From NCBI GenBank assembly GCA_029781935.1, contig JAKOVT010000294.1, forward strand, positions 1 through 42,434: a stretch of 42,434 bases of DNA, given 5' to 3'. Both the position numbers and the translations under genes were made by a program. The notes under the pieces are model-generated. The model made no database searches. It worked only from the letters and a program-made list of their open reading frames with translations, and was not told the DNA's origin. The stretch comes from Actinomycetes bacterium (GTDB lineage Bacteria > Actinomycetota > Actinomycetes > S36-B12 > CAIYMF01). This document shows, piece by piece, positions 4,583 to 17,474 of the stretch. Positions within the stretch are counted from its first letter, which is position 1. The number at the start of each line of letters is the position of its first letter.

Positions 4583-5152
4583 GTGCCGATGCCCGACCAG
4601 TCCGCCCTGATCCAGGCCGCCCGTGACGGCGACCGGCAGGCGTTCGACGAGCTCGTGCGCCTGACCTACGTGGACCTGTTCACGCTCGCCGTCCGCCTGA
4701 CCGGCAACGAGGAGGACGCCCGGGACGTCGTCCAGGACGCCTATCTGCGGGCCTGGCGGGGGATCGGGAAGTTCCGGGGCGACGCCCAGCTCAGCACCTG
4801 GCTCTACCGGATCACCGCGAACTGCGCGTCGACCCACCTGTCGCGGCGGCGCCGGAACCGCACCGAGCCGCTGCTGCCCGGGTTCGAGCCGGTGGAGCTG
4901 GCGGGCGACGTCCTGCCGGAGCAGGCCACGGAGTCGGGCCTCGACCTGGCCCGGATCGGCACGGCGGTCGACGCGCTGCCGGCGAAGCTGCGTGCCGTGG
5001 TGGTGCTGCGCGACGTCTACGGCCTGAGCCACGAGGCGATCGCCGAGGAGCTCGGCATCTCGGTGTCGGCGGCGAAGGTCCGGCTGCACCGGGCCCGCAA
5101 GCGCCTCCGGGACAGCGTGTTCGAGGAGCGGAGGTCGGCCCGTGCGGTATGA
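4583..5152 (+). CDS. ECF-type RNA polymerase sigma factor
   Basis: A 189-residue sigma-70-family protein with only regions 2 and 4, so it belongs to the extracytoplasmic-function group. Region 2 covers about residues 15-85 with the segment NEEDARDVVQDAYLRAWRGI. Region 4 covers about 135-180 with the helix-turn-helix LSHEAIAEELGISVSAAKVR. Start is GTG 4583 or ATG 4589; both give the same domains and neither has a strong ribosome site. A TAACCT hexamer at 4536-4541 could be a -10 element. It overlaps the next gene by 11 bases, which strongly suggests translational coupling with a cognate anti-sigma. Most actinobacteria I recall carry hadAB-like genes at this spot, so this pair is unusual. Confidence 0.9.
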   Translation: MPMPDQSALIQAARDGDRQAFDELVRLTYVDLFTLAVRLTGNEEDARDVVQDAYLRAWRGIGKFRGDAQLSTWLYRITANCASTHLSRRRRNRTEPLLPGFEPVELAGDVLPEQATESGLDLARIGTAVDALPAKLRAVVVLRDVYGLSHEAIAEELGISVSAAKVRLHRARKRLRDSVFEERRSARAV

Positions 5153-5498
5153 GGACGTCGCGGATCTGATCCCGGGCCTCGTCGACGGCACCGTCGAGGT
5201 CGACGCGCGGACCCGGGCGTTCATCGACTCGGACCTCCGGTGCCAGGCCGAGCTGGCCCGCTACCGGCGCTTGCTGCGCGGCCTCGGAGCCCTGCGGACC
5301 ACCTATCTCGAGCCGGCGCCCGGCGGTCTGGCCCAGACGCTGAACGCGCTGGCGGCCGAGGGCGAGCGCAAGGTCGCGCGGTCGTACCTGCGCGGTCGGC
5401 GGGCGCTGGTCGCCGGCGCGGCCCTCGGTGGCGCCGCCGTCGCCACCGCCGCGGCGGTGGTCGCCGCCCGCTCGCGCCGGCGGGTCCTCGCCGGCTGA
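5142..5498 (+). CDS. Putative anti-sigma factor, single membrane helix, zinc motif lost
   Basis: A 118-residue protein that starts (GTG 5142) inside the end of the sigma gene, with GGAGCGGAGG just upstream. The N-terminal half (LIPGLVDGTVEVDARTRAF ... LRCQAELARYRRLLRGL) resembles the helical anti-sigma domain in pattern, but the HxxxCxxC zinc motif is reduced to the single C34. A hydrophobic Ala/Val/Gly helix spans about residues 88-109, followed by a short basic tail, so the protein would sit in the membrane with its N-terminus in the cytoplasm. Function is inferred from overlap with the sigma gene and topology; no diagnostic motif proves it. Confidence 0.65.
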   Translation: MRYEDVADLIPGLVDGTVEVDARTRAFIDSDLRCQAELARYRRLLRGLGALRTTYLEPAPGGLAQTLNALAAEGERKVARSYLRGRRALVAGAALGGAAVATAAAVVAARSRRRVLAG

Positions 5499-5526
5499 GC
5501 CGTGCCGCACCCCGGTCGTTCCCGGC

Positions 5527-5556
5527 GTGAGTCCCGCCGTCCCGCGCGGCTAGGCT
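5527..5556 (+). promoter_or_regulatory. Promoter candidate for tRNA-Trp-secE-nusG
   Basis: GTGAGT (5527-5532) and TAGGCT (5551-5556) are separated by 18 bases. The -10 matches the TAGnnT form seen at three other sites here; the -35 keeps only the TGA core. Transcription would start near 5563, about 20 bases before tRNA-Trp. Confidence 0.5.
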
Positions 5557-5582
5557 CGCCCCTCCGGCCCCCGCGCGCCCGG

Positions 5583-5656
5583 AGGGCAGTAGCTCAATTT
5601 GGCAGAGCTCCGGTCTCCAAAACCGGCGGTTGGGGGTTCGAGTCCCTCCTGCCCTG
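5583..5656 (+). tRNA. tRNA-Trp (anticodon CCA)
   Basis: The acceptor AGGGCAG pairs with CTGCCCT, the D arm contains AGCTCAATTTGGCAGAGC, the anticodon stem CCGGT/ACCGG closes CTCCAAA with anticodon CCA, and the T arm contains GGTTCGAGTCC. The discriminator is G and CCA is not encoded. It sits just before secE, the standard bacterial arrangement. Confidence 0.97.
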
Positions 5657-5704
5657 CTCCGAAGACGACCAGCCAGGGACCCTGTCCCGGGAAGGCCTGC
5701 AGCG

Positions 5705-5992
5705 GTGAACCAGCAGAACCGACAGATGCGGCGAGCCGCGCAGAAGGCCGGAGCGGATCAGCCGCGCCGTCCCGAGCGTCGCTCCGCCGCGCCTGCTGCT
5801 GCGACGGAACGCACCAGCCCCACCCAGTTCTTCACCGAGGTGCGTGCCGAGCTCCGCAAGGTCGCGTGGCCGACCAAGAACGAGGTCATCAACTCGACGA
5901 TCATCGTGCTGATCGCCGTCGTGGTGATGACCTCGCTGATCTTCGCCGCGGACTACGTGTTCGCCAAGGGCGTCCTCTTCCTCTACGACTGA
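5705..5992 (+). CDS. secE: Preprotein translocase subunit SecE
   Basis: A 95-residue single-span SecE, which clamps SecY in the Sec translocon. The conserved amphipathic segment [19 protein letters not shown] is at about residues 42-60, followed by one membrane helix at about 63-84. The basic N-terminal 40 residues are low-complexity. The start is the GTG at 5705, preceded by GGGAAGG. It lies between tRNA-Trp and nusG, 4 bases before the nusG start, so the two are co-translated. Confidence 0.96.
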
Positions 5993-5996
5993 GCCG

Positions 5997-6743
5997 ATGA
6001 CCGTGACCGACGACTTCTCGAATCCCTTCGCGTCCGCGGACGACGGCGACGCGGGCACCGATCCCGTGGCCGAGCCCGCGGCGGACGCACCGGCCGACGT
6101 GTCGCCCACCGAGGTGGAGCTGCCCGGCGACGCCGAGATCCTCGAGGTCGCCGAGTACGACGACGACGAGGAGCTCGAGGCCGAGCCGAGCCCGTACGAC
6201 CGGCCCGGGCGCTGGTACGTGGTCCACACCTACGCGGGCTACGAGAACAAGGTGAAGCAGAACCTCGCCAGCCGTGTGCGCTCCATGAACGTCGAGGAGC
6301 GGATCTTCGAGGTCGTCATCCCGATGGAGGACGTCATCGAGTTCAAGAACGGCCGCAAGGTCGTCGTGCAGAAGAAGGTCTGGCCCGGCTACCTGCTGAT
6401 CCGCATGGCCCTCGACGACGACTCCTGGTACGTCGTGCGCAACACCCCGGGCGTCACCGGCTTCGTCGGCAGCGGCGCCAAGCCCACCCCGCTCACCCGT
6501 CGCGAGGTCGAGGAATGGCTCGGCAAGGGCGAGGAGCGCGAGGGCCAGCAGGAGAAGAAGGTCCGGCCGCGGCTCGAGTACGAGGTCGGCGAGCAGGTCC
6601 GCGTCACTCAGGGTCCCTTCGCCGACTTCAACGGCGCCATCAGCGAGATCGACGTCGACCGGTCCCGCCTCAAGGTGCTCGTCAACATCTTCGGCCGGGA
6701 GACCCCGGTCGAGCTGGAGTTCGGCCAGGTGGCCAAGCTCTAG
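5997..6743 (+). CDS. nusG: Transcription termination/antitermination factor NusG
   Basis: A 248-residue NusG, the universal elongation factor that binds the RNA polymerase clamp and couples to Rho or to S10 on the ribosome. The NGN domain begins at about residue 71 with [20 protein letters not shown] and a C-terminal KOW domain covers about 195-248 ([15 protein letters not shown]). The first 70 residues form a strongly acidic extension rich in Asp, Glu and Ala, also found in other actinobacterial NusG proteins. Start ATG 5997 is 4 bases after secE. Confidence 0.96.
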
Positions 6744-6999
6744 CCGTCACCGCGAGAATCGTGGGCCGCCGGGGGGTCCCGGGGTCCGGGGTGTGAGGGA
6801 TGCCTCCACCCGAACAGCTCAATCGAAGACACGATCGCGGTCCCAACGACCCGAGCCCGAAGCGCAGCGGAGGGCGAACCGCGGAGTGAGTGGCCGCGAA
6901 CCGGGCCACTGGTAGCAACGACGATCGAACGCGGAACCGCGGTCCGGTGAGCCGGTTCGCAACGAACGACGCCGACAAGGCGTGAACGGAGCCGAAGAG
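6744..6999 (+). other. nusG-rplK intergenic leader, 256 bases
   Basis: No gene seen. The stretch contains GC-rich partial hairpins, including AGTGGCC (6889-6895) with GGCCACT (6904-6910) and two copies of GAACCGCGG. An L1-binding mimic is known in this position in other bacteria (established for E. coli), but I could not identify one with confidence. No clear promoter was found. Confidence 0.3.
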
Positions 7000-7425
7000 A
7001 TGGCGAAGAAGAAGCTCGCCGCAGTGGTGAAGATCCAGATCCAGGCCGGCCAGGCGACGCCCGCGCCGCCGGTGGGTACCGCGCTCGGTCCCCACGGTCT
7101 GAACATCATGGACTTCTGCAAGGCGTACAACGCGGCGACCGAGAACCAGCGGGGCCAGATCATCCCGGTGGAGATCTCGATCTACGAGGACCGCACGTTC
7201 ACCTTCATCACGAAGACCCCGCCGACGCCGTTCCTCCTGCGTCAGGCCGCGGGGATCGAGAAGGGCTCGTCGGTCACGCCGCGCGAGAAGGCGGGCAAGG
7301 TCACCAGGGACCAGGTCCGCGCGATCGCCGAGCAGAAGATGCCCGACCTGAACGCCATCGACCTCGAGGGCGCCATGGCCCAGGTCGAGGGCACGGCCCG
7401 TTCCATGGGCCTCGACGTCGTCTGA
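7000..7425 (+). CDS. rplK: 50S ribosomal protein L11
   Basis: A 141-residue L11, the usual length is about 142. It forms the GTPase-associated centre of the 50S subunit with L10 and L7/L12 and binds 23S rRNA where thiostrepton acts. The N-terminus [19 protein letters not shown] and the proline-rich [17 protein letters not shown] segment are diagnostic; a C-terminal rRNA-binding domain follows. ATG 7000 is preferred over an in-frame GTG at 6982 because it fits the family start and has GGAG nine bases upstream. rplA follows. Confidence 0.97.
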
Positions 7426-7501
7426 CGTCACGGCAGCACCCACCGGTGGAGGACCTCGCCACCGGGCTCGGGACCACGAGGGAGCTTGAAGGAGCGACCA
7501 C

Positions 7502-8221
7502 ATGAAGCACGGCAAGAAGTACGCCGACGCGGCGAAGCGGTTCGACCGGGACCGCCTGCACGAGCCGGTCGAGGCGCTCGACCTGGTGAAGAACCTGGCG
7601 TCGGCCAAGTTCGACGAGACGGTCGAGGCCGTGTTCCGCCTCGGCGTCGACCCCCGGAAGGCCGACCAGATGCTGCGCGGTACGGTGTCGCTGCCGCAGG
7701 GCACGGGCAAGAGCGTGCGGGTGGCGGTGTTCGCCCAGGGTGACGCGGCGCGTGCAGCCGAGGAGGCCGGCGCCGACGTCGTCGGCGCGGAGGACCTCGT
7801 GGCCCGCGTCGAGGGTGGCTTCATGGACTTCGACGTCGCGATCGCGACGCCGGACCTGATGGGCCAGGTCGGCAAGCTCGGCCGGGCGCTCGGACCGCGT
7901 GGTCTGATGCCGAACCCCAAGACGGGCACGGTGACGCCCGACGTCGCCAAGGCCGTCAACGAGTTCAAGGCCGGTCGGGTCGAGTACCGCACCGACCGCT
8001 ACGGCAACGTGCACGTGCCGCTCGGGAAGGTGAGCTTCTCGCAGGCGGCGCTCGTCGAGAACTACTCGGCGGTGCTCGACGAGCTGATGCGGGCGAAGCC
8101 GGCCGCGGCGAAGGGCAAGTACATCAAGGGCGTGAGCCTGTCGTCGACGATGGGCCCGGGCGTGCGGATCGATCCGAACCGCGTGAAGATCGATGAGCAC
8201 GCCGGGAGCACGGCGGGGTAG
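7502..8221 (+). CDS. rplA: 50S ribosomal protein L1
   Basis: A 239-residue L1 of the mobile L1 stalk. It binds 23S rRNA and, in many bacteria, represses its own rplKA operon through a leader mimic. The sequence [17 protein letters not shown], the [18 protein letters not shown] block (about residues 131-148) and the [17 protein letters not shown] segment are typical. GGAG lies shortly before ATG 7502. It is followed by the L10 leader. Confidence 0.97.
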
Positions 8222-8245
8222 AGTCCCCGGACTTTCGATTTCCAC

Positions 8246-8350
8246 GCCGCAGACCTCCGGTCGCCCACACGGGCGGTAATGGGCCGAGTGCCCGCCGGAC
8301 GAGGCGATCCTGACCGGCCCTCCTCGGGTCCGTCGGTGTCGTTCTGCGGC
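8246..8350 (+). promoter_or_regulatory. L10-type ribosomal protein leader (rplJL autoregulation)
   Basis: GCCGCAGA (8246-8253) pairs perfectly with TCTGCGGC (8343-8350), closing a multibranch structure. Inside are hairpins GACC/GGTC (8252-8262 region) and GCCC/GGGC (8263-8274). In many bacteria the leader in this place folds around a GCAGAC core and binds the L10(L7/L12) complex to repress translation. Position and the closing helix are seen; equivalence to the known L10 leader family is inference until a covariance model is run. Confidence 0.65.
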
Positions 8351-8375
8351 CCGGACCGAGTGAGAGGAAGCCAGG

Positions 8376-9062
8376 TTGGCCAGACCCGAGAAGGTGGCGG
8401 CCGTCGCGGAGATCCGTGAGCGGCTCGCGGAATCCGACGCCGCCGTCCTGACCGAGTACCGGGGTCTCAAGGTCGCTGAGCTCGCGGAGCTGCGGGCGTC
8501 GCTGCGGACCGCGGGCACCGACTTCAAGATCTTCAAGAACACCCTGGCGCGTCGCGCCGCCGAGGAGGAGGGGCTCTCCGAGCTCGTCCCGATGCTCGAG
8601 GGTCCCACGGCGATCGCGTTCGTGAAGGGCGACGCGGTGGTGGCCGCCAAGGCGCTGCGCGACTTCGGCAAGACGAACGCCGCGCTCGTCATCAAGGGCG
8701 GACTGCTCGCCGCGCGGGTCCTGAACCCCGCCGACGTGGGCGCGCTCGCCGACGTCGAGCCCCGTGAGGTCCTCCTCGCCCGGCTCGCCGGCGGCTTCCA
8801 GGCCCCGCTCACCAAGGCGGCCGGCCTGTTCCAGGCGTTCACCCGCAACATGGCCTACGGCGTGAAGGCGCTGATCGACCAGCGGATCGAGAGCGGCGAG
8901 GCCGCGCCCCCGGCCGATGCCCCCGCCGAGGAGACCCCCGACGAGGCAGCGACCGACGCGCCGGCGCCCGAGGCGGACACGCCTGCAGAGGCCCCGGAGG
9001 CATCGGGTGACACCGACCGGCCGGCCGAGACCACCGAATCGGACGCCCCCGCGGGCGACTGA
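8376..9062 (+). CDS. rplJ: 50S ribosomal protein L10 with acidic C-terminal tail
   Basis: L10 anchors the L7/L12 dimers to the 50S stalk. The 228-residue protein starts at TTG 8376 (MARPEKVAAVAEIRERL), with GAGAGGAAG upstream. The core, including TEYRGLKVAELAELR and FKIFKNTLARRA, ends near residue 175, the normal family length. Residues 176-228 form an Ala/Pro/Glu/Asp tail that ordinary L10 lacks. It is preceded by a structured leader and followed by rplL after 33 bases. Confidence 0.96.
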   Translation: MARPEKVAAVAEIRERLAESDAAVLTEYRGLKVAELAELRASLRTAGTDFKIFKNTLARRAAEEEGLSELVPMLEGPTAIAFVKGDAVVAAKALRDFGKTNAALVIKGGLLAARVLNPADVGALADVEPREVLLARLAGGFQAPLTKAAGLFQAFTRNMAYGVKALIDQRIESGEAAPPADAPAEETPDEAATDAPAPEADTPAEAPEASGDTDRPAETTESDAPAGD

Positions 9063-9095
9063 CCCATTCTCGAAAACGAAAGAGAGACACACGAA

Positions 9096-9488
9096 ATGGC
9101 GACGATGAGCACCGAAGAGCTCCTGGACGTCTTCAAGAACATGACGGTCCTCGAGCTGAACGACTTCCTCAAGGCGTTCGAAGAGGAGTTCGGCGTGACG
9201 GCGGCGGCCCCGGTGGCCGTGGCCGCGGCCGGCGCGGCTCCCGCGGGCGGCGGCGGCGAGGCGGCGGCCGAGGAGAAGGACGAGTTCGACGTCATCCTCG
9301 CGGCGGCCGGCGACAAGAAGATCCAGGTCATCAAGGAGGTCCGCGCGCTCACGAGCCTCGGGCTGAAGGAGGCCAAGGAGCTCGTCGACAACGCCCCGAA
9401 GCCCGTGCTCGAGAAGGCGTCCAAGGAGGACGCCGAGAAGGCGAAGGCGGCCCTCGAGGGCGCCGGCGCCTCGGTCGAGCTCAAGTAG
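9096..9488 (+). CDS. rplL: 50S ribosomal protein L7/L12
   Basis: A 130-residue L7/L12, the multicopy stalk protein that recruits translation GTPases. The N-terminal dimerisation part ([20 protein letters not shown]), an Ala/Gly hinge at about 45-55 and the C-terminal factor-binding domain ([35 protein letters not shown]) are all present. Start is ATG 9096; ATG 9105 is an alternative. A hairpin terminator begins 5 bases after its stop. Confidence 0.97.
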
Positions 9489-9492
9489 TCCC

Positions 9493-9512
9493 CTCCGGGC
9501 AGGGGCCCGGAG
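9493..9512 (+). terminator. Hairpin terminator/attenuator after rplL
   Basis: CTCCGGGC (9493-9500) and GCCCGGAG (9505-9512) form a perfect 8-bp stem with loop AGGG. It starts 5 bases after the rplL stop codon. Partial termination here is known in other bacteria to set the rplL to rpoB ratio. No T tract follows. Confidence 0.6.
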
Positions 9513-9527
9513 CGAGGACCCGAGTCG

Positions 9528-9556
9528 TTGACTTACCGGGGGAGGATTTGTATCCT
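9528..9556 (+). promoter_or_regulatory. rpoB promoter P1, TTGACT-N17-TATCCT
   Basis: TTGACT (9528-9533) and TATCCT (9551-9556) are spaced by exactly 17 bases, the best primary-sigma match in the window. The start would be near 9563, about 175 bases before rpoB. The -10 lies inside the right arm of a perfect inverted repeat (9536-9563). Confidence 0.65.
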
Positions 9557-9563
9557 CCCCCGG
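9536..9563 (+). repeat. Perfect 12-bp inverted repeat across the rpoB promoter
   Basis: CCGGGGGAGGAT (9536-9547) and ATCCTCCCCCGG (9552-9563) are exact complements around TTGT; A9535/T9564 adds a thirteenth pair. In read-through RNA from rplJL it forms a very strong stem; as DNA it covers the spacer and -10 of P1. It may be an attenuator, an RNase III site or an operator. Confidence 0.8.
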
Positions 9564-9611
9564 TTCGTCCAGACGGCACCCCGCCGGGGGTGGCCGTCTG
9601 ATTCGGTGTGC

Positions 9612-9641
9612 TTGCGCCCACGCGCGCGCGGGCGATAGGAT
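9612..9641 (+). promoter_or_regulatory. rpoB promoter P2 candidate, TTGCGC-N18-TAGGAT
   Basis: TTGCGC (9612-9617) and TAGGAT (9636-9641) are 18 bases apart, the same architecture as the rpsL and rplC promoters. The start would be near 9648, about 90 bases before rpoB. Confidence 0.5.
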
Positions 9642-9737
9642 CCGCCGAGCCGTGTCGATCCGCCCGCACCACCTCTGTTCCTCCCTGGTGTGGGTCCGCG
9701 CGCGCCTGCACACCCCCCTCAACCTCGAGGAGTTGCG

Positions 9738-12700
9738 TTGACTCGTCTCGCGTCCCGTGAGCGGTACTCCTTCGGCCAGCTGCGTGAGGTGCTGGCCCTC
9801 CCGGATCTCATCGCCGTGCAGCGTGAGTCCTTCCAGTGGTTCGTGGAGACCGGCATCGCCGAGGTCCTCCGTGACATCTCGCCGATCGAGGACTTCACCG
9901 GTCAGCTCAAGCTGGAGCTGACCGACCACGTCTTCGACCCGCCGAAGCACTCCGAGGACGAGTGCCGCGAGCGGGACATGACGTTCGCGCGGCCGCTGTT
10001 CGTGACCGCCCGCTTCATGAACGCCGCCACCGGCGAGATCAAGGAGCAGACCGTCTTCATGGGCGACTTCCCCATGATGACGGCGCGCGGCACCTTCATC
10101 ATCAACGGCACCGAGCGGATCGTGGTGTCCCAGCTCGTGCGGTCGCCGGGCGTGTACTTCGACGTGACCCCCGACAAGACGTCGCCCGAGAAGGACATCG
10201 TCAGCGCCAAGATGATCCCGGGCCGCGGCGCGTGGCTCGAGTTCGAGGTCGACAAGAAGAACGTCGTCTACGTCCGGATCGACCGGAAGCGCAAGCAGCC
10301 GGTCACGGTGCTGCTGAAGGCGCTCGGCTTCGGTGAGACCGAGGAGGAGCTCCTCAACCTCATCACCGACCCCGCCGGTCGGCCGTACGACTCGATGCGC
10401 AACACGCTCGACAAGGACCCGACCGACAGCGTCGACGCCGCCTTCATCGACATCTACCGCAAGCTGCGCCCGGGCGAGCCGCCCACGCCGGACAGCGCGC
10501 GGAGCCTGATCGAGAACCTCTTCTTCAACCCCAAGCGCTACGACATGGCCAAGGTCGGCCGGCACAAGGTCACCAAGAAGCTCTCGGACGAGTACCCGAA
10601 GATCGCGGCCACGCTGAAGCGCTTCGACATCACGGTGCCGAACGCCGACCCCGACGCGGGCCCGGTCGAGTACACGATGAGCCGCGCCGACATCCTCGCG
10701 ACGGTGTCGTACCTCGTGAAGCTGCACGCCAACGACCAGCCGAACGACTACTTCCCCGACGACATCGACCACTTCGGCAACCGCCGGGTGCGCTCGGTCG
10801 GCGAGCTGATCATGAACCAGGTCCGCGTGGGCCTCTCCCGCATGGAGCGGGTCGTGCGCGAGCGGATGACGACCCAGGACGTCGAGGCGATCACGCCCCA
10901 GACCCTGATCAACATCCGGCCGGTCGTGGCGGCGATCAAGGAGTTCTTCGGCTCCAGCCAGCTCAGCCAGTTCATGGACCAGACGAACCCGCTCGCGGGC
11001 CTGACCCACAAGCGGCGGCTCTCGGCGCTCGGCCCGGGTGGACTGAGCCGTGAGCGCGCGGGGTTCGAGGTCCGTGACGTGCACCCCAGCCACTACGGCC
11101 GGATGTGCCCGATCGAGACGCCGGAGGGCCCGAACATCGGCCTCATCGGCTACCTGTCCTGCTACGCGCGGATCAACCGGTTCGGCTTCATCGAGACGCC
11201 GTACCGCAAGGTCGTCGACGGCGTGGCCACGGACACGATCGAGTACCTCGCCGCCGACGACGAGGACCGCAACGTCATCGCCCAGGCGAATGCCGTGATC
11301 GACGAGAACGGCCGGTTCGTCGACGAGCGCGTGCTCGTGCGCGCCGGCCGCGGCGAGGTCGCCTTCGTGGACCCCCACGAGGTCGACTACATGGACGTCT
11401 CGCCGAAGCAGATGGTCTCGGTGGCGACCGCGCTCATCCCGTTCCTCGAGCACGACGACGCCAACCGGGCCCTGATGGGCGCCAACATGCAGCGCCAGGC
11501 CGTGCCGACGCTGCGCCCGGAGGCCCCCTACATCGGCACCGGCGTCGAGGCGCGTGCGGCGCACGACGCCGGCGAGCTGCACGTGGCCGAGGGCGACGGC
11601 GTGGTCACCGAGGTGACCGGCACCACCATCACCGTCGCGTACAACCACACGGCGAAGCCGGTCACCTACCGGCTCTCGAAGTTCAGGCGGTCGAACCAGG
11701 GCACCTGCATCAACCAGAAGTCGCTGGTCAAGACGGGTGACGAGGTGGTCGAGGGCGACATCCTCGCCGACGGCCCGTCGACCCACCAGGGCGAGCTGGC
11801 GCTCGGCAAGAACCTGCTGGTCGCCTTCATGCCCTGGAAGGGCCAGAACTTCGAGGACGCGATCATCCTCTCCGAGCGGCTCGTGCGCGACGACGTGCTC
11901 ACCTCGATCCACATCGAGGAGCACGAGATCGACGCCCGTGACACCAAGCTCGGCGCCGAGGAGATCACCCGGGACATCCCGAACCTCTCCGAGGACACCC
12001 TGAAGGACCTCGACGAGCGCGGCATCATCCGCATCGGCGCCGAGGTCGGCCCGGGCGACGTCCTGGTGGGCAAGGTCACGCCGAAGGGCGAGACCGAGCT
12101 CACGCCGGAGGAGCGCCTCCTGCGCGCGATCTTCGGTGAGAAGGCGCGTGAGGTCCGTGACACCTCGCTCAAGGTGCCCCACGGCGAGAACGGCAAGGTC
12201 ATCGACGTCCGCGTGTTCAGCCGCGAGGACGGCGACGAGCTGCCGCCCGGCGTGAACCAGCTGGTGCGCGTCTACGTCGGCCAGAAGCGCAAGATCAGCG
12301 CGGGCGACAAGCTCGCCGGCCGTCACGGCAACAAGGGCGTCATCTCGATCATCCTGCCGGTCGAGGACATGCCGCACCTCGCCGACGGCACCCCGGTCGA
12401 CATCGTGCTGAACCCGCTCGGCGTGCCGAGCCGCATGAACGTCGGCCAGGTGCTCGAGGCGCACCTCGGCTACGCCGCCCGCCACGGGTGGGAGGGCCAG
12501 CGGGTCGCCCCGCGCAGCGAGCGGGCCACCCGTCCGATCACCGAGCCCGCGGTGTGGGTCAACACGCCGGTGTTCGACGGCGCGCACTGGGACGAGGCCG
12601 AGGCCGCGGGTCACCAGGGCACGATCCAGAACCTGTTCGCCACCCTCCACCCCGACGGTGCCGACGGCCGCCGGCTGGTCAACACCGAGGGCAAGGCGAC

Positions 12701-13232
12701 GCTGTACGACGGCCGCACCGGCGAGCCCTACGACTCCCCGGTCACGGTCGGCTACATGTACATCCTGAAGCTGAGCCACCTCGTGGACGACAAGATCCAC
12801 GCCCGGTCGACCGGCCCGTACTCGATGATCACCCAGCAGCCGCTGGGCGGAAAGGCGCAGTTCGGCGGTCAGCGCTTCGGAGAGATGGAGGTGTGGGCCC
12901 TCGAGGCGTACGGCGCGAGCTACGCCCTGCAGGAGATCCTCACCATCAAGTCCGACGATGTCCTCGGCCGCGTGAAGGTCTACGAGGCGATCGTCAAGGG
13001 CGAGAACATCCCCGAGCCGGGAATCCCCGAGAGCTTCAAGGTGCTCATCAAGGAGATGCAGGCCCTCTGCCTCGACGTCAAGGTCATCGACGAGGAGGGC
13101 GCCGAGATCGTGATCCGCGAGCTCGACGAGGACGCGTTCCGCACCACCGAGGCACTCGGCATCGACCTCAGCCGCCCCGAGCGCGGGACGGACGAAGAGG
13201 ACGAGGCCCGACGCAACGCCCAGATGCCGTAA
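9738..13232 (+). CDS. rpoB: DNA-directed RNA polymerase subunit beta
   Basis: A 1164-residue beta subunit of RNA polymerase, of normal actinobacterial length. The start is TTG 9738 ([19 protein letters not shown]) with GAGGAG five bases upstream; the frame is open further back but lacks a better start. The rifampicin-binding region begins near residue 403 with [20 protein letters not shown] and continues [19 protein letters not shown]; the Asp, His and Ser positions linked to rifampicin resistance are wild type, so the enzyme is predicted sensitive. The active-site segment GHNKGVIS-like reads [10 protein letters not shown]. The gene is followed by rpoC after 84 bases. Confidence 0.98.

Positions 13233-13316: not shown

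Positions 13317-17474
<4,158 letters not shown>

Follow-up and report, generated by a model that had tools for sequence, protein, structure and literature searches.

The locus between rplL and rpoB raises the question of what it means for a core promoter of rpoB, the gene that sets RNA polymerase supply, to be written into a perfect palindrome. A preliminary description had suggested that such an element could act as an attenuator on incoming transcripts and as an operator or cruciform on DNA. We analysed the whole stretch of 42,434 nucleotides (contig JAKOVT010000294.1), hereafter the window, and compared the locus with related genomes.

The rplL-rpoB locus and its lineage

NCBIfam profiles identified the gene order rplJ-rplL-rpoB-rpoC in the window, with the genes placed as follows.

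Inside the open reading frame 8376-9062: L10 (rplJ), from NCBIfam
9096-9488, + strand: rplL (ribosomal protein L7/L12), the upstream gene, from the open reading frame and NCBIfam TIGR00855 (154 bits)
9738-13232, + strand: rpoB with a TTG start, from the open reading frame, the order comparison and NCBIfam
13317-17474: rpoC, from NCBIfam

The gap from the rplL stop (9488) to the rpoB TTG (9738) is 249 nt. Across the whole window, Rfam at gathering thresholds returned two tRNAs only and no known cis-regulatory RNA family at the site.

Because the N-terminus of the window's RpoB was ~61-65% identical to the "same genus" genomes of its own bin, and 94% and 93% identical in two genomes of another lineage, the first belonging to another order, the contig is probably a contaminant of its bin, that is, mis-binned (bin contamination figure, 8.67%). 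The comparisons therefore need the order matched by RpoB, not the bin's genus. This order is represented by 58 genomes, 44 of them with a match; some other members of its class showed ~80% identity over 65-70 residues to named Acidimicrobiaceae/Acidimicrobiales records. The order set consisted of 44 anchored rplL-rpoB loci, one of which (L177) lacked upstream sequence, leaving 43 informative loci.

The P1 promoter and its palindrome

The elements of the first promoter, P1, and the palindrome over it are listed below.

9528-9533, + strand: P1 -35 element TTGACT (mostly TTGACC in relatives), from direct reading, promoter scan and order comparison
9551-9556, + strand: P1 -10 element TATCCT, from direct reading, promoter scan and order comparison
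9563, + strand: predicted P1 transcription start, the seventh base after the -10 element, from spacing only
9535-9547 / 9552-9564: palindrome with perfect 13-bp arms and loop 9548-9551; it takes in most of the spacer of P1, the -10 element and the GC-rich bases that precede the start

The proposed promoter, TTGACT-N17-TATCCT at 9528-9556, was read directly, and a scan of both strands from 5000 to 12000 gave P1 as the sole promoter-like match in these 7 kb, with 0.2 matches in shuffled sequence. Its earlier characterization as near-ideal was overstated, P1 matching the consensus at 9/12 positions. P1 was present in 37/43 informative order loci (30 with TTGAC, 7 with a weaker -35 element and TATCCT), supporting it as a conserved promoter-like element on sequence grounds. 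In the second-nearest genome (G528), P1 sits on another contig (L197). The pattern TTGAC-N17-GTATCCT had 21 matches in 19/58 order genomes, 16 of them P1 by position and one other upstream of rpsL in G628. P1-like sites were also found between rplL and rpoB in the more distant relatives L032, L033, L034, L040 and L065, where the palindrome is absent.

Several loci showed individual arrangements. P1 is kept in L160, L150, L163, L164 and L181 even though the stretch covered shows no rplL immediately upstream. In L161 and L133, a hairpin encloses the P1 -35 element and carries a double change from GGCATCGG/CCGATGCC to GGTATCGG/CCGATACC. In G628 (L203), a TTGACC-N17-TATCCT-type promoter lies ~120 nt before rpsL, identified by our own reading of the encoded protein start; a strong hairpin immediately follows the promoter's transcription start.

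The palindrome had been described as 12 bp long. Its 12-nt arms, CCGGGGGAGGAT (9536-9547) and ATCCTCCCCCGG (9552-9563), are indeed perfect over the spacer and -10 element and enclose the loop TTGT, but the stem is really 13 bp (A9535:T9564); GAC/GTC further out pair loosely, giving 18-nt arms at 89%. No other perfect inverted repeat (loop 3-10) in the whole window is as long as this stem; per window, 60 dinucleotide shuffles gave an expectation of 0.12 stems of at least 12 bp and 0.017 of at least 13 bp. The RNA fold of 9528-9572 reached -31.9 kcal/mol (z -7.1), a stable GC-rich hairpin in the through-transcript as expected of an attenuator, and the DNA fold of the same hairpin was -17.7 (z -7.5). 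As had been proposed, RNA from P1 would begin at the hairpin's end, with a start near 9563 predicted from the -10 element alone. A canonical intrinsic terminator was rejected because the T-run is missing: TCGTCC follows the 13-bp stem, and the terminator scan gave no site there.

Folded as read-through RNA, the gap (9486-9740) was strongly structured (z -5.6), with hairpins at 9493-9512, 9535-9564 and 9570-9600. The two that flank the P1 hairpin are as follows.

9493-9512, + strand: hairpin right after the rplL stop, with the 8-bp perfect stem CTCCGGGC/GCCCGGAG
9570-9600, + strand: hairpin near the start of the P1 RNA, its arms 9570-9582 and 9588-9600 interrupted by a single bulge

Further downstream, just ahead of the ribosome-binding site of rpoB, lies GGTCCGCGCGCGCC (9693-9706); judged by eye, variants of it recur in many of the order's leaders.

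Fate of the palindrome in relatives

The perfect palindrome was kept in none of the other order loci. A promoter retained without its palindrome, the pattern named in the preliminary description as telling against its proposal, was thus found as far as the perfect palindrome is concerned; the two nearest relatives nevertheless keep a degraded hairpin. Among the window and these two relatives, the -10 arm is identical and all palindrome differences lie in the spacer arm. Of the 13 palindrome pairs, 5 are each broken in at least one of the two relatives, and none is compensated. Their P1 hairpins scored z -1.2 and -2.3 (window, -7.1), and those of L146 and L147 z -0.25 and -1.7.

Compensatory changes, which had been suggested as a check, were accordingly absent from the palindrome, and were found in hairpin 9570-9600 and at P2, the second promoter, of other species. 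All 12 counted pairs of hairpin 9570-9600 were kept in the two nearest relatives (three sequences only), with one A-U to G-C double change and one C-G to U-G change; the pair beside the bulge was omitted, since the position of the bulge differs in the relatives, and the outermost pair is represented in the window only. The contrast between the palindrome and 9570-9600 covers three sequences and is descriptive, the pair-shuffle control being not significant (147/500 reach it), as is to be expected of so few rows. The perfect hairpin appears to be specific to the window's lineage, as an extreme case. The perfection of the palindrome is probably recent or accidental; its arrangement probably is not.

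Recurrence of dyads at P1 with other sequences

Removal of 7 loci without P1 (including L177) and 6 near-duplicates from the 44 anchored loci left 31 loci. Complementarity between spacer and -10 element in these loci was 17.5 vs 14.7 with permuted partners (sd 0.5), and 0/20,000 permutations were as high. The value was reached by 0/500 of the loci's own shuffles, by 1/500 without the window (dinucleotide shuffles) and by 2/1000 when the window's whole family was removed (27 loci). Taken individually, 7/31 loci had a significant P1 dyad (0.05) and 24/31 did not; in a positional control within leaders, 8/31 loci fell in the top 5% (overall P 0.06). The dyads of L147 (10 bp), L172, L157 and L160 have different arms in each case, and that of L160 is strong though its rplL ends 1,353 nt before rpoB.

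Chimeras were then compared with real sequences in fold strength, the downstream half being swapped for another species' half. Across the order, the test gave z -4.6 at the P1 -10 element, -6.5 at the next hairpin, which corresponds to 9570-9600 and is thus recurrent, and -5.7 at P2. It was near 0 at -15 (z -0.6) and +50 (z -0.2), and the effect dropped just to z -2.3 between P1 and the next hairpin. Real sequences also outfolded cross-species chimeras 30-40 nt upstream of the P1 -10 element (z -3.3 and -3.5). When the chimeras were built from nearest relatives, the effect at P1 lost its significance (-1.05 kcal, P 0.17, n=37), whereas P2 (P 0.003, n=34) and the hairpin after P1 (P 0.018) remained significant. 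P1 dyads outside the order were weak (P 0.06; 0.08 and 0.02; z at most -2.2). The hairpin potential described at P1 therefore recurs with other sequences within the order, but without reaching significance under the nearest-relative control. A self-versus-cross comparison made on hairpins already selected as the best is circular and was excluded as evidence.

Hairpins at the second promoter, P2

The features of P2 in the window are as follows.

9612-9641, + strand: P2, TTGCGC 9612-9617, N18, TAGGAT 9636-9641, predicted from similarity to relatives
9649-9656, + strand: predicted P2 start region GCCGTGTC, conserved in the order
9615-9634: self-complementary stretch inside the P2 spacer, 92%

The P2 motif was found in 30/38 order loci examined. 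P1 and P2 (TAGGAT/GCCGTG) would form a tandem pair of sigma-A-type promoters on the same strand between rplL and rpoB. The -10 dyad score of the window's own P2 was not significant (P 0.47).

In other classes, 59 high-GC P2 promoters gave a chimera z of -8.0 when centred 7 nt upstream of the -10 element, and in the remaining 18 of 77 promoters, those of low GC, the signal was not clear (z -1.3 at -7, reaching no more than -2.3, at -15). Nearest-relative chimeras for P2 of other classes (n=70) gave P 0.01 at -7 and 0.002 at -4. The "first" promoters in other-class leaders showed little around the -10 element (z -1.1 at -7, at most -2.2). For Actinomycetes-type P2 (n=27), the chimera z was -5.6, and nearest-relative chimeras gave P 0.0005 at the -7 centre and 0.0004 at -4. 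The own-shuffle test of P2 outside the order was null with intervals centred on the -10 element (z 1.0 and 0.2) and gave z 5.8 (n=80) with the centre shifted to -5, placing the dyads a few nt upstream of the -10 element. The -5 centre was picked after seeing the data; later many-centre scans peaked at -7, both in other classes and in the separate Actinomycetes-type set.

Covariation was assessed in Actinomycetes-type P2 segments, including Streptomyces, Micromonospora and Nocardiopsis. Of 56 loci examined, 46 had the motif and 42 were aligned, four near-duplicates being omitted; an 11-pair stem model was taken from the fold of one of the 42. In these segments, 71.9% of cells were paired vs 63.9% in shuffled alignments and 36-46% in slid controls, and double-changed cells numbered 43 vs 18.4 shuffled (0/500). 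RNAalifold found no consensus structure in the P2 alignment. Opposite the invariant -10 T's, G exceeded A (30:5 and 25:8 of 42), which suits G-U pairs in RNA. These results suggest that high-GC genomes across the phylum carry hairpins at the P2 -10 element, a pattern that survives the nearest-relative control.

Specificity of the dyad and nature of the acting form

At 27 promoter-like control sites outside rpoB leaders, the same test gave z -2.7 at the same centre, -3.0 at -20 and -2.9 at 0. Because these unrelated sites show a weaker effect, part of the dyad effect may be background, and specificity of the dyad to rpoB is not proven; the genome-wide promoter-control pattern covered 2 sites only. 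Counts of G-T vs A-C were 35:4, compared with 67:14 in chimeras (P 0.23), and at P1 7:4, compared with 109:62 in chimeras.

Proposed mechanism and alternative explanations

The promoter is conserved, the palindrome lies over it, and structure recurs there with changed sequence. Our tentative reading, to which we give somewhat less than an even chance, is that the P1 palindrome forms part of an origin-discriminating attenuator in which rpoB core promoters double as hairpins in incoming RNA. The tandem promoters P1 and P2 would drive rpoB from the rplL-rpoB gap, and the P1 core (spacer, -10 element and GC-rich stretch before the start) also encodes both hairpin arms. RNA started at P1 would begin at the hairpin's far edge and could not form the hairpin, and RNA from rplL would hold all of it. 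The hairpin would close with the polymerase 8-12 nt further on, over the first transcribed bases of P1, and together with hairpins 9493-9512 and 9570-9600 would stall or end incoming transcription; rpoB would therefore be fed by its own promoters. We infer RNA as the acting form, stalling or termination as the outcome, and the start positions of P1 and P2. The same layout, spelled differently, recurs at P1 of a minority of relatives and, across the phylum, at P2 of many genomes with high GC; at P2 the incoming RNA would be P1 RNA. The perfection of the window copy may be a lineage accident atop a weaker ancestral hairpin. A wider claim, that Actinomycetota rpoB core promoters are dual-coded, with -35-side spacer and -10 element kept complementary so that RNA passing through the promoter, not from it, folds and stalls polymerase on the start site, seems to us rather unlikely.

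The perfect palindrome could also be a lineage accident without function of its own, which is possible, at a probability we set well below even. The 3' arm would be fixed by the -10 element and GC-rich stretch, and the free GC-rich 17-nt spacer would drift into a chance match, an imperfect repeat having perhaps been corrected by template switching. Such an origin agrees with the three nearest sequences differing in the spacer arm and never in the -10 arm, with the non-significant nearest-relative control at P1, with the 24/31 loci that have no significant dyad, and with the part of the effect seen at the 27 control sites. It accounts poorly, however, for a recurrence that beats permutation and own shuffles even without the window or its family, for a 13-bp stem that is expected 0.017 times in the window and falls on the -10 element, and for the same arrangement at P2, which also holds under the nearest-relative control.

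Two explanations place the function in DNA. A cruciform with an AT-rich centre would extrude under negative supercoiling and compete with the open complex, making rpoB supercoil-sensitive. The single-strand DNA fold is strong, the dyads at both promoters have their centres at the -10 element or slightly upstream of it, and no RNA-specific bias was significant against chimeras, all of which would fit. GC-rich 13-bp arms, however, extrude slowly, long perfect arms are absent in most species, and G opposite the -10 T's at Actinomycetes-type P2 would be mismatched in DNA; we consider a cruciform improbable. An operator that overlaps the -10 element and binds a dimeric regulator, although its location over spacer and -10 element would suit a repressor and its symmetry is perfect, is very improbable. 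No second copy with <=3 mismatches was found in the window's mixed, incomplete assembly, and five relatives yielded just one match, the orthologous site of one relative with 3 mismatches. The arms differ between species, so the suggested operator, for which a conserved or regulon-repeated sequence would be expected, was not borne out.

Comparison with known systems and implications

The origin-discriminating attenuator has partial counterparts elsewhere. Attenuation and RNA processing in E. coli rplJL-rpoBC were reportedly described by Barry in 1980 (cited in PMC5371410). The window shares with that system the gene gap and a limit, here proposed, on read-through from ribosomal protein genes into rpoB; unlike in E. 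coli, its rpoB promoters lie inside hairpins, and the likeness is one of arrangement. According to the main text of PMC6181997, E. coli rpoB shares an upstream promoter, Promoter I in M. smegmatis lowers Promoter II via transcription of the intervening region, read-through from upstream into rpoB was not seen in mycobacteria, and the promoter pair shapes the mycobacterial response to transcription inhibition. Like P1 and P2, mycobacterial rpoB-rpoC promoters I and II lie on the same strand, the first transcribes across the second, and the intervening region is conserved (PMC6181997, main text). The pair differs in that the word "hairpin" is absent from that main text and in the lack of upstream read-through, which speaks against the attenuator reading.

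Clustered hairpins act as intrinsic terminators according to PMC8355165; as in the window, several hairpins follow the stop codon and a T-run is not needed. Unlike in those clusters, one window hairpin doubles as the core promoter of the gene downstream, 22 nt separate the first hairpin from the second (<15 in the clusters), and the third extends to 112 nt past the stop codon, where that paper places 98% of sites within 80. Among the literature matches listed, none described a hairpin that overlaps an rpoB core promoter, a weak result as subscription papers were mostly missing.

If one set of bases serves as both promoter and hairpin, initiation and through-transcription would be coupled by sequence alone, without a protein regulator. 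Weaker, differently spelled hairpins at related rpoB promoters may likewise distinguish incoming from new transcripts, and an origin-sensing attenuator within the promoter could account for the lowering of Promoter II by Promoter I at mycobacterial rpoB. The conserved pairing offers a precise mutational test. Even with an accidental P1 palindrome, the covarying P2 hairpin would give an essential promoter a concrete feature that can be tested.
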